Shown here: positions 1-6,858 of the stretch, piece after piece
Layout of the letters: each line of letters begins with the position of its first letter
Position numbering within the stretch: position 1 is the stretch's first letter
DNA from: a virus
Strand: one strand, 5' to 3'
Virus record (IMG/VR): IMGVR_UViG_3300022602_000067
Location: 1-64,000 of that record
Length of the DNA stretch: 64,000 nucleotides
The notes under the pieces: generated by a model
Told to the model about the DNA's origin: nothing
The model's input: the letters and a program-made list of their open reading frames with translations, nothing else
The model's database searches: none
Program-made: the position numbers and the translations under genes

Positions 1-15
1 GACATTGGAGACAGC

Positions 16-249
16 ATGATTACAATTGAAGATCCTAGATCAAGATATGATCAAAGACATGGCGGACCTTTTGACCGTGGATCAGCAGACTCGTGGTACA
101 GCCGTCCATTCAATCCTCACTTCTACAGGGGTGGAACCTATGAAGGAGCCCGTGTGGAATTGGCGGATATGACAGCTGAAGAGATCGTGGCCTATACCGC
201 AGGCTATCACTGGAATGAGAAGTTCGGCGGGAAGAAAGATTACAATTAA
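16..249 (+). CDS. Small phage protein of unknown function (77 aa)
   Basis: A 77-residue hydrophilic protein with no signal peptide or membrane segment. The start is supported by GGAG 5 nt upstream. The middle carries RGSADSWYSRPFNPHFYRGG, and the C-terminal half has MTAEEIVAYTAGY. This pattern resembles a small conserved protein family that I associate with many phages, but no function is known to me. It is followed by the first copy of the repeated promoter cassette, so it belongs to an upstream transcription unit that enters the window from the left. Confidence 0.65.
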   Translation: MITIEDPRSRYDQRHGGPFDRGSADSWYSRPFNPHFYRGGTYEGARVELADMTAEEIVAYTAGYHWNEKFGGKKDYN

Positions 250-269
250 CCCTCCAAAGTGAATGGGAT

Positions 270-298
270 TTGACTGTCTGCCCAAAAGGCGTTATAAT
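270..298 (+). promoter_or_regulatory. Sigma-70-type promoter, cassette copy 1
   Basis: TTGACT at 270-275, 17 bp, TATAAT at 293-298. The spacer contains GCCCAAAAGGC, an imperfect inverted repeat. It is followed by a leader with AACATCAACAGCAAATAAGG and the ribosome site GGAGCGAA at 320-327. Confidence 0.9.
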
Positions 299-329
299 AC
301 TAACATCAACAGCAAATAAGGAGCGAAAA

Positions 330-539
330 ATGACACAATTAAAAGACATGCAAGGTAAAGAGATCAAAGTAGGCGATCGTGTAGCAATGGTCAGCTATCA
401 CAATGCCGGTAGTCTTGTTATTGGGGTAGTTGAGAAACTAGGCCGTGTTCGTGCTCAAGTTCGCCCTGTACAGGCCAGCTTCACTAACATCGACCCTCAA
501 GTAGCCAGCATTGGTTCAACTGATTTAATTAAACTCTAA
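330..539 (+). CDS. Small hypothetical protein, first gene of promoter cassette 1 (69 aa)
   Basis: The chosen ATG at 330 lies just after the strong GGAGCGAA ribosome site at 320-327. An in-frame ATG at 270 would lie inside the promoter and is rejected. The product is 69 residues, basic and soluble. It has a KEIKVGDRVAMVSYHNAG segment followed by VVEKLGRVRAQV, a layout reminiscent of small beta-barrel (KOW or SH3-like) folds, though I cannot assign a family. The stop TAA overlaps the ATG of the next gene by one base (TAATG), so the two are probably translationally coupled. Confidence 0.75.
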   Translation: MTQLKDMQGKEIKVGDRVAMVSYHNAGSLVIGVVEKLGRVRAQVRPVQASFTNIDPQVASIGSTDLIKL

Positions 540-766
540 TGAAGCGACATTACATCAAATGGAGTGAGGTCCTGACGGGTAATATATCTCTCGAAGATCG
601 AAACAGAATTCGAAACTCTGTTCAGCTCTATGTACTCACTCCTAAGGGCTGGAAAGGTATTGCCGTGTGCTATACTCACAAAGAAGCAGAAGAGTTCAAA
701 GAGCGCATCCTTCAGGGCAAAGTCACGCTCAAATATGAGCATGAAAAAGTCTTTAAGATTGGTTGA
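539..766 (+). CDS. Small hypothetical protein (75 aa), coupled to the preceding gene
   Basis: A 75-residue, positively charged protein whose ATG overlaps the upstream stop codon as TAATG. No separate ribosome site is visible, which suggests translational coupling. The sequence is mixed alpha/beta, with a central VQLYVLTPKGWKGIAVCYT strand-rich segment and a charged C-terminal helix. No family is recognised. Its TGA stop (764-766) lies inside the TTGACA box of the next promoter, so gene end and promoter are fused. Confidence 0.7.
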   Translation: MKRHYIKWSEVLTGNISLEDRNRIRNSVQLYVLTPKGWKGIAVCYTHKEAEEFKERILQGKVTLKYEHEKVFKIG

Positions 767-791
767 CAGTCTAGCCCAAAGACGTTATAAT
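763..791 (+). promoter_or_regulatory. Sigma-70-type promoter, cassette copy 2
   Basis: TTGACA 763-768, 17 bp, TATAAT 786-791, followed by the shared leader and GGAGCGAA at 815-822. The -35 box contains the stop codon of the preceding gene. Confidence 0.9.
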
Positions 792-826
792 ACTAACATC
801 AACAGCAAACAATAGGAGCGAAAACT

Positions 827-1531
827 ATGTTCAAACTATTATCTACAGCGAATCCCAAAATCCAAAAGGGTACTGCCAAAGGCTACCTTTCATTCATCCT
901 GCATCTTGCGCCCAGCGACTTGAGCGGACACAATGTCTGCCCTAAGGCTACCCCTGGTTGCATCTCCGCTTGCCTTAATACAGCAGGACGCGGTGGTATG
1001 TTCCGCAAGGGCGAGACTACCAATGTGATCCAAAAGGCTCGTATTCGTAAGACTCAATTGTTCTTCAATGACAGAACTACATTCTTCAACTATCTTACAC
1101 AGGACATCACTAAGGCCATCGCAATGGCTAAGAAGTTGGGATTGAAGCCCGTGTTCCGCCTTAACGGCACATCAGACTTGAGCTGGGAGAAATACGAAGT
1201 GCCCGGCACTGGCTTGAACATATTCCAAATCTTCCCAGAAGTACAGTTCTACGACTATACTGCCGTCCTGGGTCGCAAGGTGTTTCACATTAATAATTAC
1301 CACCTTACATTCAGCCGCAAAGAGTCTAACGATGCTGACTGCACCCGAGCGATTGCACAAGGCATGAACGTCACTGCCGTGTTTGATAGTATCCCTGAGG
1401 GCATATACTCAGCAGACGAAGATGACCTGCGCTTCTTAGACCCTAAGGTGGGCGTGATTGGTTTGAAGGCTAAGGGCAGGGCCAAAAAAGATTATTCAGG
1501 CTTCGTAATCCGCTTGACAGAAGTGGCTTAA
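827..1531 (+). CDS. Gp88-like phage protein with a clustered-cysteine motif (234 aa)
   Basis: The protein resembles the phage 'gene product 88' family, which has no proven function. Near the N-terminus it carries NVCPKATPGCISACLNTAG, with Cys38, Cys45 and Cys49 (CX6CX3C). This cluster resembles metal or Fe-S binding motifs but is not the canonical radical-SAM CX3CX2C. Downstream segments such as KPVFRLNGTSDLSWE and EVQFYDYTAV look like strands of an alpha/beta barrel. It is preceded by promoter copy 2 and GGAGCGAA. The promoter of the next gene lies inside its last codons. The family call is moderately sure; enzymatic activity is inference. Confidence 0.75.
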   Translation: MFKLLSTANPKIQKGTAKGYLSFILHLAPSDLSGHNVCPKATPGCISACLNTAGRGGMFRKGETTNVIQKARIRKTQLFFNDRTTFFNYLTQDITKAIAMAKKLGLKPVFRLNGTSDLSWEKYEVPGTGLNIFQIFPEVQFYDYTAVLGRKVFHINNYHLTFSRKESNDADCTRAIAQGMNVTAVFDSIPEGIYSADEDDLRFLDPKVGVIGLKAKGRAKKDYSGFVIRLTEVA

Positions 1532-1542
1532 GAGGCTATAAT
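1514..1542 (+). promoter_or_regulatory. Sigma-70-type promoter, cassette copy 3
   Basis: TTGACA 1514-1519, 17 bp, TATAAT 1537-1542. The -35 box lies within the last codons of the gp88-like gene. Leader ATCAACAGCAAATAAGGAGC and ribosome site GGAGCGAA (1564-1571) follow. Confidence 0.9.
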
Positions 1543-1575
1543 ACTCATATCAACAGCAAATAAGGAGCGAAACTT

Positions 1576-1761
1576 ATGTCAGATAAACTATATGCCGTCT
1601 GCGACGCAGTCGTAGCCGTCACAGGATTCTTTTTAGTCTATGGAGTGTCAGGCGCAATTGACACCGCAACAGACAGTCAATTGATGCCTTTGGCCCTTAT
1701 GGCCCTAGCAGGCTTGGGCTTGTTCTTCGCAGGCGTTAACGGCTTGACAACCCGTAAGTAA
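1576..1761 (+). CDS. Small two-helix membrane protein (61 aa)
   Basis: A 61-residue protein with two hydrophobic stretches: about residues 8-27 (AVCDAVVAVTGFFLVYGVSG) and 37-56 (MPLALMALAGLGLFFAGVNG), separated by a short polar loop with two Asp and two Thr. It ends in RK. This is the signature of a small inner-membrane hairpin protein. The start is set by GGAGCGAA 5 nt upstream. Holin-like or host-membrane-modifying roles are possible, but its place in the early-type module argues against a late lysis role. No family recognised. Confidence 0.7.
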   Translation: MSDKLYAVCDAVVAVTGFFLVYGVSGAIDTATDSQLMPLALMALAGLGLFFAGVNGLTTRK

Positions 1762-1772
1762 GACAGTATAAT
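1744..1772 (+). promoter_or_regulatory. Sigma-70-type promoter, cassette copy 4
   Basis: TTGACA 1744-1749, 17 bp, TATAAT 1767-1772, overlapping the last codons of the membrane-protein gene. The ribosome site here is the variant GGAGCAGA (1794-1801). Confidence 0.88.
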
Positions 1773-1803
1773 AACTACTTCAACAGCAACAAAGGAGCAG
1801 ACA

Positions 1804-1899
1804 ATGGAATGTACATACTGTAGAAAATGGCATTTTAAGGGCGTGGCAACTTGTAATGCACCAGGTGCGCCAAAAGAAACTCCACACAAAGGCAGTTGA
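1804..1899 (+). CDS. Cysteine-containing microprotein (31 aa)
   Basis: A short ORF supported by its own promoter copy and an AAAGGAGC ribosome site. The product begins MECTYCRKWHF and contains a CX2C pair (Cys3, Cys6), His10 and Cys17, which could bind one zinc ion. It ends in basic residues. The TGA stop (1897-1899) lies inside the TTGACA box of the next promoter. It is too short for family assignment; the evidence is context plus signals. Confidence 0.65.
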   Translation: MECTYCRKWHFKGVATCNAPGAPKETPHKGS

Positions 1900-1924
1900 C
1901 AGCATGCCCGAAAGGGCTTATAAT
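1896..1924 (+). promoter_or_regulatory. Sigma-70-type promoter, cassette copy 5
   Basis: TTGACA 1896-1901, 17 bp, TATAAT 1919-1924. The spacer carries the perfect inverted repeat GCCCGAAAGGGC next to the -10 box. Ribosome site GGAGCGAT at 1947-1954. Confidence 0.9.
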
Positions 1925-1956
1925 TAAGACTTACTTAACTTAATCAGGAGCGATAA

Positions 1957-2277
1957 ATGATTACAGCAGATCAAATCAAAGCAGGTTTTGTCTTAGCACA
2001 TCTCGCAGGTGTTGAGATGTATCAAAAGATTGGCGAGCGTGATGCTTGCGGTTTTGGTTGGGTTGATGTCTACGTAGACAGAACCAATTCCAAGCAGGCC
2101 AAGGAGCTGATCAAAGCCGGCTTCCGCAAGGACTACAAACCCAAATGCTTGAGCTATTGGGATCCAGCAAAGATTCCTACTCAATCAATTTCAGTTAAGG
2201 AAGCAGGCGCTGAGGCATTGGCTACTTATCTACAGAGCTTGGGCTTGAAGGCCTACGCAGGTAGTCGAATGGATTGA
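1957..2277 (+). CDS. Hypothetical protein (106 aa)
   Basis: A 106-residue soluble protein with an N-terminal helix, a central segment DACGFGWVDVYVDRTNSKQA and a C-terminal AGAEALATYLQSLGLKAYAG helix-strand unit. I recognise no family. The two halves (residues 20-60 and 75-106) both pair a helix with a strand, as in small alpha/beta folds. Promoter copy 5 and an AGGAGCG ribosome site precede it. Its TGA stop is embedded in the -35 box of copy 6. Confidence 0.7.
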   Translation: MITADQIKAGFVLAHLAGVEMYQKIGERDACGFGWVDVYVDRTNSKQAKELIKAGFRKDYKPKCLSYWDPAKIPTQSISVKEAGAEALATYLQSLGLKAYAGSRMD

Positions 2278-2302
2278 CCACAAGCCCGCAAGGGCTTATA
2301 AT
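2274..2302 (+). promoter_or_regulatory. Sigma-70-type promoter, cassette copy 6
   Basis: TTGACC 2274-2279, 17 bp, TATAAT 2297-2302. The spacer carries the perfect inverted repeat GCCCGCAAGGGC. Ribosome site GGAGCGCA at 2325-2332. Confidence 0.9.
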
Positions 2303-2333
2303 ACGAACTTAAATACTTTTTACAGGAGCGCAA

Positions 2334-3224
2334 ATGGCAAAGGTAGTCACTTCAAAGATGCTTATGGCACTACAGACAGAATCCAAATCACTCGAGCTAG
2401 ACAACTCGGCAGTCAAGGCCAAAGAGCTAGCACTCAAATCAGAATCAGACGACTCGATCCTCGCTCGTTTGCGTGATCGTTTTGAGATCCTAGACGACAT
2501 GACCCGTGCTGTCAAAGCAGGCAAGGTCAAGGCCATGATCGTAACAGGCCCTCCAGGCGTGGGCAAGAGTTTCGGTGTTGAGAAAGTACTCAGCAAGCAT
2601 GATGTGTTCGCCAATGTAGCCAACGATCAGAAGCTGAAGAAGTACGAAGTAGTCAAAGGCGCAATGAGTGCCATTGGCCTCTACAGCAAGCTCTATCACT
2701 TCAGTGAGAAGAAGTGTGTGTTGGTATTCGATGACTGCGACAGTATCCTCTTGGACGACTTGAGCTTGAACATTCTCAAAGCCGCATTGGATTCAAGCAA
2801 GAAGCGTACTATCCATTGGAACACTGACAGCAGTCTCTTACGCCGTGAAGGTGTGCCTGACAGCTTTGAGTTCAAAGGCGGCGCTATCTTTATTACCAAT
2901 ATTAAGTTCGATCACGTTAAGAGCAAGAAGCTTCGCGATCACTTGGAAGCACTAGAGAGTCGTTGCCACTACTTGGACCTGACTATCGACACAGAGCGTG
3001 AGAAGCTGTTGCGTATACATCAAGTGGTCACAGAGTGCGGCATGCTAGACGACTATGAGCTAGAGGACTATCAGAAGCAAGATGTGCTAGACTTCCTTAA
3101 GGCCAATACACATCGTGTACGCGAGCTGAGCCTGCGTACAGTACTTAAGATAGCAGACTTGGCTGCCAGCTTCCCCGACAAGTGGCAGGCTGTAGCAGAG
3201 TCTACTGTTATGCGTAGAGCATAG
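2334..3224 (+). CDS. AAA+ family ATPase (296 aa)
   Basis: The protein has a complete AAA+ nucleotide-binding core. Walker A is GPPGVGKS at residues 72-79, Walker B is VLVFDDCDS, a sensor-1 Asn lies in GGAIFITNIKF, and a candidate arginine finger is the Arg in LEALESRCHYL. The N-terminal ~45 residues are helical and charged and may be an adaptor or oligomerisation region. The C-terminal ~60 residues form a helical lid. It resembles phage-encoded remodelling ATPases of the MoxR/Cdc48 type but lacks a recognisable effector domain. It is the last gene of the early-type module and shares its transcript with the hairpin array at 3234-3376. Confidence 0.85.
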   Translation: MAKVVTSKMLMALQTESKSLELDNSAVKAKELALKSESDDSILARLRDRFEILDDMTRAVKAGKVKAMIVTGPPGVGKSFGVEKVLSKHDVFANVANDQKLKKYEVVKGAMSAIGLYSKLYHFSEKKCVLVFDDCDSILLDDLSLNILKAALDSSKKRTIHWNTDSSLLRREGVPDSFEFKGGAIFITNIKFDHVKSKKLRDHLEALESRCHYLDLTIDTEREKLLRIHQVVTECGMLDDYELEDYQKQDVLDFLKANTHRVRELSLRTVLKIADLAASFPDKWQAVAESTVMRRA

Positions 3225-3233
3225 AGTAGGGCA

Positions 3234-3376
3234 GGGTGCATGCATAGCACCCACCCAGTAGATGCCCAACGATTCGCTCCCGGCAAGCATCTACACCAAA
3301 AGCGCCGTAAATCCGATTCGCTCCCGGTCGCGCTTTTTAGGTCCCCAGGGGATTAGGTTCTCTGGGGATTTTTTTT
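3234..3376 (+). ncRNA. Candidate structured regulatory RNA with two loops complementary to the cassette ribosome sites
   Basis: Four hairpins follow the AAA+ gene. H1 pairs GGGTGC (3234-3239) with GCACCC (3247-3252). H2 pairs GTAGATGC (3258-3265) with GCATCTAC (3287-3294). H3 pairs AAAAGCGC (3298-3305) with GCGCTTTT (3330-3337). H4 is the terminator. H2 and H3 have unrelated stems, but their loops share the identical 14-mer CGATTCGCTCCCGG (3270-3283 and 3314-3327). TTCGCTCC within it is the exact complement of GGAGCGAA, the ribosome site of three cassette genes, and pairs nearly as well with two more. Regulation by base pairing is inference. No separate promoter is evident, so it may be processed from the AAA+ mRNA 3' end. 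Confidence 0.5.
3342..3376 (+). terminator. Intrinsic terminator closing the early-type module
   Basis: Stem TCCCCAG (3342-3348) with CTGGGGA (3362-3368), followed by eight T (3369-3376). Confidence 0.9.
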
Positions 3377-3649
3377 CTTTCGGAAAAGATATTTGAAAAA
3401 AAAGATATCGAGAGAGATCGGTCGGGGGGTACGGGGCATATATGTTTGCAAACTGTTGTAACAGCGCAACAGCGCATGGGTACCGAAGTATTTTCACCCC
3501 TCTCAAATTTTAAGTACTTCTTTATAATTTTTTACGCGGGCAATTTTTTCTAGTTAGTTTTACCTCGGGCCCGGACCCTAAGTACTTCTCACGATTTTTT
3601 TGCGCACTATTTTTTTTACCCTGTAGGTGCCTTTCGGGTAAGTATATAC
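3377..3649. other. Gene-free region between early and late-type modules, with T-rich repeats
   Basis: No convincing gene was seen. The stretch holds a tandem octamer AACAGCGC (twice, 3460-3475), several poly-T runs, two copies of an AAGTACTTCT-led repeat (3512 and 3580), and a small TTACCC/GGGTAA hairpin (3616-3641) before the next ORF. Confidence 0.6.
3512..3618 (+). repeat. Two copies of a ~40-bp T-rich repeat led by AAGTACTTCT
   Basis: The copies start at 3512 and 3580. Each has the palindromic AAGTACTT core, a run of T, a CGC triplet and a second run of T. A third copy lies at 4595-4633 and a degenerate one at 6789-6807. The function is unknown. Confidence 0.75.
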
Positions 3650-3868
3650 ATGGATGCTCACTTGATAATTCCCAGGATTATAACCGCTCTGCTCAGCATA
3701 TTCCAAGCTGCCAGCCTGCGTGATCGTCTTTATCTGTCAGAACAGCGTGTGGAAGTTCTGTCACTAGCTCTAGAAGATATAGCTCGTATAAATGCCAATT
3801 CTGCCAATCCCAATGCACTTATAGCAGGCATCTGCTCCAGTCGCGTTACTCAGCGTCAGGACGACTGA
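3650..3868 (+). CDS. Possible small protein (72 aa)
   Basis: A 72-residue ORF with a hydrophobic N-terminal region (LIIPRIITALLSIFQAASL) followed by a charged helical segment. This layout fits a membrane-anchored coiled-coil peptide. There is no clear ribosome site, and the 3' end overlaps the convergent minus-strand gene by 13 bp. It is plausible because it fills an otherwise empty stretch, but the evidence is thin. Confidence 0.4.
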   Translation: MDAHLIIPRIITALLSIFQAASLRDRLYLSEQRVEVLSLALEDIARINANSANPNALIAGICSSRVTQRQDD

Positions 3869-4572
3869 TCACAAAGTCCACTCAACACTCTAATACGATC
3901 AATGTCTTCGCTGATCTTGATCTTTTTATCCAAGCCTGTAGTCTGTGCTAGTGTTTGGGCATGTTTCAATTTATCCGCATCACTGACCAGTCCTGCTCCT
4001 GCTGTATAGGCCTTTTCTGCACGTCCCACTAGATCATCTGCCTGTGCTACGAAAGGATTGCCTGTATTGCGTACAGCGCCACGTATATCGCCCTGTGCTA
4101 GTTTTTGTCCCGTGTCTATAGCTGTTTGAACACGATCACTTCCCGGAACAAAATCTAGTGCAGTTTTGGCCGCATCCACATAGTTGCCCTGTGCCGCCGT
4201 TTGAGCGATGTCAGTACCCTTGGCTAGTGTGCCTAAATTTTGCGCTAGTCCGCCTCCGGCTATGCCGGCTACTGCTTGTAGTGCGCCTTTGGCATCTCCC
4301 CTAGCAATACTGGTGGCCGCATTAACTACAGTTAGCACTAGTCTAGTCTGTGGCAATAACTTCAGTGCTGTCATTATGGTGGGATGTGTTTTCATCCAAC
4401 CGTTAACTGTGTCTACTATGCCCTTGGCGGTAAGTTCACTGACACCATCATCGTCACTATCAATTTGTTTAAGCAACGCTTCAGCTTCATCCCATTCTTG
4501 TTGACGCTGTGCCAGTCTTTCAGGAGGAGTGGGTTGCACCGCGAGATTTTCAGTTATTTCTTTGATCAGCAT
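3856..4572 (-). CDS. Ala/Gly-rich protein with a capsid-targeting-like N-terminus (238 aa)
   Basis: The N-terminus reads MLIKEITE-N, similar in length and spacing to T4 capsid-targeting peptides that the gp21 protease cuts after (L/I)XE. Residues 40-60 contain SDDDGVSELTAKGIVDTVNG. The centre (about 65-190) is a run of short Ala/Gly-rich amphipathic helices such as AVAGIAGGGLAQNLG, typical of membrane-active or internal head proteins. No enzymatic motif is seen. It lies downstream of the GH19 and SGNH genes in the same orientation. A TATTTACC octamer (late-promoter-like on the minus strand) sits 4 nt before the start. A packaged internal protein is inference. Confidence 0.7.
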   Translation of the reverse strand: MLIKEITENLAVQPTPPERLAQRQQEWDEAEALLKQIDSDDDGVSELTAKGIVDTVNGWMKTHPTIMTALKLLPQTRLVLTVVNAATSIARGDAKGALQAVAGIAGGGLAQNLGTLAKGTDIAQTAAQGNYVDAAKTALDFVPGSDRVQTAIDTGQKLAQGDIRGAVRNTGNPFVAQADDLVGRAEKAYTAGAGLVSDADKLKHAQTLAQTTGLDKKIKISEDIDRIRVLSGLCDQSS

Positions 4573-6511: not shown

Positions 6512-6519
6512 TATTTATA
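6512..6519 (-). promoter_or_regulatory. T4-type late promoter TATAAATA
   Basis: An exact match on the minus strand to the T4 late consensus. It drives the 6506 to 3856 gene cluster, and the expected start of transcription falls at or next to the first ATG. Confidence 0.75.
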
Positions 6520-6850: not shown

Positions 6851-6858
6851 TATAAATA
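6851..6858 (+). promoter_or_regulatory. T4-type late promoter TATAAATA
   Basis: An exact match on the plus strand, 25 nt before the ATG at 6884, with GGAGGG at 6871-6876 as ribosome site. Confidence 0.85.

Follow-up and report, generated by a model that had tools for sequence, protein, structure and literature searches.

The window (the whole stretch of viral DNA analysed here, 64,000 nt) opens with a block of cassettes that are visibly duplicated promoter-leader units, all on the + strand. Six sigma-70 promoters in this block match 11-12 of 12 consensus bases (the first at 270-298, the others at 763, 1514, 1744, 1896 and 2274), and a similar leader comes after each of them; the 64-kb window has no further sigma-70 promoter of this quality. 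These promoters are the basis on which we infer that the block genes are early. These genes include a GP88-family gene (827-1531) and an AAA+ ATPase gene (phrog_1250, 2334-3224), whose 3′ UTR carries the hairpins described below.

Two adjacent hairpins with different 8-bp stems and an identical 14-nt loop had been noticed from the letters of the DNA, and both sequence and fold bear this out. In hairpin 1 (3258-3294, +), GTAGATGC at 3258-3265 pairs with GCATCTAC at 3287-3294; in hairpin 2 (3298-3337, +), AAAAGCGC at 3298-3305 pairs with GCGCTTTT at 3330-3337. The two stems are unrelated in sequence, and the common loop sequence CGATTCGCTCCCGG (3270-3283 and 3314-3327) has no third copy in the 81-kb record. 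The anticipated inner closure is present as well: hairpin 1 has CG/CG and hairpin 2 has CCG/CGG, and the loop that remains in both is the 9-nt ATTCGCTCC (AUUCGCUCC at 3272-3280, and the same loop at 3316-3324). A small 5′ hairpin, GGGTGC/GCACCC (3234-3252, +), lies upstream of hairpin 1 and is not conserved in sequence when relatives are compared. For the 152-nt hairpin region the fold energy is -58.9 kcal/mol (z = -4.1), and none as low was reached in 200 shuffles. No tRNA or tmRNA origin of the region was detected, no Rfam 15 family matched the window at its gathering threshold, and a relaxed Rfam scan of 3100-3450, up to E = 5, returned nothing credible and no C4 match.

The strong terminator with which the RNA had been proposed to end was located at 3339-3376 (+) by fold and terminator scan, and is the sole convincing intrinsic terminator in positions 1-4000 of the window; no convincing per-cassette terminators were found in the early block over the same span. 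Because the block has no other convincing terminator, the hairpins may be the 3′ end common to all early mRNAs and not that of the AAA+ mRNA alone, so that transcripts from all six promoters would probably share one 3′ end.

The loop is complementary to the ribosome sites of the block. Its stretch UUCGCUCC complements without mismatch three GGAGCGAA ribosome sites, those of cassette 1 (320-327) and of the GP88-family gene (815-822) and the one at 1564-1571, each paired over 8 of 8 positions, and the exact reverse complement of GGAGCGAA is the 8-mer TTCGCTCC, found at 3273-3280 and again at 3317-3324, as the sequence-only reading had it. Also as claimed there, the 8-mer pairs at 7 of 8 positions with the site GGAGCGAT at 1947-1954 and over GGAGCG (6 contiguous nucleotides) with the leader of the AAA+ gene itself (GGAGCGCA, 2325-2332). 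The sixth cassette, whose promoter is at 1744, has the weak site GGAGCAGA at 1794-1801, with a match limited to GGAGC (5 nt). Whereas 0.02 copies of GGAGCGAA would be expected in the first 3.2 kb, three are observed, each at a ribosome site; among the roughly 20 GGAG-type leaders in the rest of the window, none continues with CGA.

Outside the block, where GGAG sites do not continue with CGA, T4-type ATAAATA motifs are found. As late-promoter motifs they occur at 6851 (+) and at 6519, 17110, 26280 and 40075 (-), upstream of possible start codons. A separate intergenic element, AAGTACTTC, is present three times after the early block (3512, 3580 and 4595, +), with an A/T-rich spacer and then TTTTTT(A/G)CGC after each copy. 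Relatives have similar stretches, L238 for instance past its hairpins; the element is perhaps a promoter or a replication element.

Conservation was examined in 80 viral contigs encoding a close AAA+ homologue, 60 of which were scored strictly. A hairpinned CGCTCC follows the AAA+ gene in 57 of the 60 scored close relatives, and nearly all of the 80 contigs have one or two hairpins with GATTCGCTCCC past the AAA+ stop codon, with very different stems and spacers. The inner closure varies in compensation (CCG/CGG, GTG/CAC, GG/CC) while the 9-nt loop AUUCGCUCC remains. Among type-1 hairpins, all eight outer pairs have changed on both sides, and stem covariation is 0.631, against 0.181 in shuffled alignments and at most 0.163 in slid controls. 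The covariation search across related phages that had been suggested thus gives strongly covarying stems, in keeping with the proposed selection on RNA structure. Hairpin 2 is itself the intrinsic terminator in many relatives; the window has its terminator just past both loops. The more distant branches sometimes have the hairpin further along the block and not directly 3′ of the AAA+ gene. In the L242-L269 branch, the AAA+ stop is directly followed by a small gene that shows a CQYxGxE...GKSYCxEHY-like pattern, and the hairpins are further downstream. At a second location, two contigs (L063, 9658-9687, and L079, 8945-9006, both -) carry further hairpin pairs or triples with an identical loop; these precede a separate strong terminator and include a perfect CCTTGG-ATTCGCTCC-CCAAGG.

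GGAGCGA leaders precede many block genes in nearly all of these relatives, and loss of the loop from relatives that keep GGAGCGAA leaders, which would have counted against a regulatory RNA, was looked for; the loop was found to be retained. Early-block leaders cluster strongly near the block in genomes of up to 383 kb; one genome of 185 kb has 14 forward GGAGCGAA start sites, every one of them within 27-39 kb. Among cultured phages, the nearest AAA+ homologues have at most 46% identity (PA5oct group), and the PA5oct region inspected has neither the leader array nor the hairpin. A DNA search for cultured phages gave chance matches only, a host search through AAA+ homology in bacterial genomes gave nothing useful, and a 14-mer scan of viral contigs, whose many single matches are expected by chance, served only as a lead.

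Potential targets are not confined to the block. Each of four jumbo genomes has one copy of the 11-mer GATTCGCTCCC that is not in a hairpin, always as the complement of a 5′ leader. Three of the four distant sites are at a start codon (GGGAGCGAATC with ATG within 14 nt); at the fourth, a second site, GGAGCGAATC, is at the start codon, with the 11-mer about 40 nt further upstream. The target start sites are at L230 1414-1463, L231 1464, L232 about 1334 (-) and L233 about 1421 (-), and are complementary over 10-11 nt to the loop plus its closing bases; by a simple count, fewer than one such site would be expected by chance over the four genomes, and without preference for start codons. The distant target belongs to the same gene family in two of the four genomes. 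In L230, the two site copies in one leader equal the number of its hairpins. It is possible that the leaders form a complementary hairpin, CCG-GGAGCGAAU-CGG, and hence a kissing interaction with the loop; the predicted folds do not favour this leader hairpin as the lowest-energy structure.

A likely reading is that the hairpins form an antisense RNA module, borne by the 3′ UTR or terminator, and that this module would occlude the Shine-Dalgarno sites throughout the early regulon. As part of a 3′ UTR common to early mRNAs, the exposed loops would base-pair with GGAGCGAA, the extended Shine-Dalgarno sequence in front of the phage’s own early genes, the AAA+ gene included, and this pairing would block ribosome binding, Shine-Dalgarno occlusion being its most likely consequence. 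With six early promoters leading to a single 3′ end, the level of the module would rise as early transcription proceeds, and an RNA made alongside early mRNAs would shut the early genes off through negative feedback. The module would work in trans, as a 3′-end fragment either free or processed, possibly also in cis, and may need an RNA chaperone, 8 bp being short. Repression as the outcome, its timing and release as a small RNA are what we infer from the sequence.

An alternative is that the 3′ loops act mainly in cis by pairing with the 5′ ribosome site of their own mRNA, bridging or locking the message and altering its translation or stability, with no separate small RNA. Six promoters with one convincing terminator suit this idea, as block transcripts probably end in the hairpins, and the leader of the AAA+ gene is itself complementary; the targets with extended complementarity, however, lie hundreds of kb away and are reachable only in trans. 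We therefore regard a mainly cis role as rather unlikely, though it deserves more weight than the other alternatives considered below.

Pairing between loops and leaders is further indicated by a marine sister lineage, M, which belongs to a branch with 34 rows in the AAA+ tree. Its members have one to three hairpins after the AAA+ gene, whose loop is GUGCCCUC or closely similar and whose stems vary freely; stem covariation is 0.877 against 0.262 when shuffled, in an alignment from which three non-hairpin hits were left out. The block leaders of lineage M are GAGGGCA throughout, and are clustered as in lineage A. Mean duplex energies were -9.57 with the lineage’s own loop and -6.25 with the other loop for lineage A leaders (n = 283), and -10.19 and -6.00, respectively, for lineage M leaders (n = 200). 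These differences should be read against a reversed-loop control that still gave -7.12, and CUCC-containing loops pair somewhat with any Shine-Dalgarno site. Tabulating leader against loop gave 52 loci with GGAGCG/CGCTCC, 17 with GAGGGC/GCCCTC and a single off-diagonal tie. On the AAA+ tree the change from A to M is essentially one event, in which up to about ten leaders per genome were involved.

Base pairing of loop and leader would predict such a joint change and the hypotheses of protein binding, decoy and duplication would not, a difference that, at the level of sequence, tells decisively between them. The loop might instead be the binding site of a phage protein, either a translational repressor or a processing factor, with leader complementarity secondary. 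Strict loop conservation would be expected from protein binding too, but a shift of the marine loop and leaders to a new complementary pair would not, and we consider this explanation improbable. Equally doubtful is the idea that the loop serves as a general decoy of the 16S anti-Shine-Dalgarno sequence, or as an antisense to host ribosome sites in host shut-off, and is not directed at the phage’s own early genes. The loop does have CUCC or CCUC, able to pair with the core of any ordinary Shine-Dalgarno site, and the 16S tail gave -7.5 to -7.8 against the same leaders; yet the conserved pairing bases outside the core (CGAA, GCA) covary with the phage’s own leaders and are missing from the window’s other GGAG leaders. 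Least probable, and disfavoured, is that these are ordinary terminator hairpins in which the 8-mer match arose incidentally, through cassette duplication or block-end recombination: the cassettes are duplicated units and hairpin 2 is frequently a terminator, but the ribosome-site complement is all that the hairpin shares with the cassettes, and the loops are fixed on unrelated stems, beyond chance in those 57 of 60 relatives.

Antisense pairing with the early leaders is thus, as far as sequences can indicate, strongly supported. The claim that the loops are antisense to the early ribosome sites gains from the stem covariation, the compensatory change of loop and leaders and the distant extended targets, and sequence evidence shows the RNA structure, its conservation, the loop-leader complementarity and the matched change between lineages.

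Some relatives do not fit. L239 has UCGCUCC loops with mostly GGAGCA leaders, and L256 (2168) has a UUCGCUCC loop with GGAGCA leaders; both are poor fits. Two relatives with uniform leader arrays, L248 (ACGGAGAA, about 10 copies) and L276 (CAAGGAGCA, GGAGCA), had no matching loop in the DNA examined. In L274, a UUGCUCC loop (1578 and 1619) accompanies GGAGCA leaders, with a match of 6-7 nt. This third loop type is suggestive; the match is short and the relative L256 is discordant, and we did not count it as evidence.

The antisense module favoured here has the working principle of bacterial 3′-UTR-derived sRNAs and RNAIII-type regulators, in which a 3′-end fragment with a terminator has loops that pair with ribosome sites. 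There is no sequence relation to these, and what differs here is the phage regulon and the covariation of loop and leader across phage lineages. Two features by which trans-acting antisense sRNAs are recognized were found, namely conserved RNA structure and, with exceptions among the relatives, complementarity to multiple targets that covaries with them. Among phage RNAs, the C4 RNA of P1 and P7 has complementary stretches, probably in loops, that pair around the ribosome site of the phage’s own mRNA and block its translation (PMC12197685). C4 antisense RNA (RF01695) therefore resembles the present case in being a phage RNA with a loop complementary to a ribosome site of its own mRNA, a feature present here. 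C4, however, targets one gene (ant) and controls immunity, whereas a whole early regulon is concerned here; the module lies in a 3′ UTR or terminator, following the AAA+ gene and ending the block, and not upstream of an ant antirepressor gene; and it has no match to the Rfam covariance model RF01695. The C/U-rich terminator loop of Helicobacter pylori RepG pairs with an mRNA leader (PMC8295292), but RepG is a bacterial sRNA with its own gene and targets a G-repeat in one operon, in contrast to two tandem loops, a Shine-Dalgarno target and the phage’s own regulon. The RegB endoribonuclease of T4 acts on GGAG Shine-Dalgarno sites (PMC3014915). T4 RegB and the RegA repressor are alike to the present proposal in that phage early genes are shut off at translation-initiation regions; they are proteins, whereas an RNA with sequence-specific pairing beyond GGAG is proposed here. 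Given the lack of an Rfam match and the different gene context, none of C4, RepG, RegB or RegA is a relative of the module. No description of the motif or of a similar phage sRNA was found in the open-access papers searched, coverage of which was incomplete.

We lean towards a broader view, with somewhat less assurance than for the antisense module itself, that the tandem hairpins represent an undescribed and widespread class of phage RNA switch. Placed at the 3′ end of the early block, they would be a feedback timer silencing all genes that carry a phage-specific extended Shine-Dalgarno code, a code that would have diverged by joint change of loop and leaders to give each lineage a private ribosome-site address. 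Early-gene shut-off in large lytic phages is known mainly from T4 proteins; if our reading is true, this would be an RNA-only early shut-off, conserved from freshwater to marine jumbo phages. A whole regulon and its regulator changing sequence together would be rare and direct evolutionary evidence for sRNA-target pairing. The reading also predicts a testable, phage-specific Shine-Dalgarno code, and would offer a simple orthogonal regulator part.
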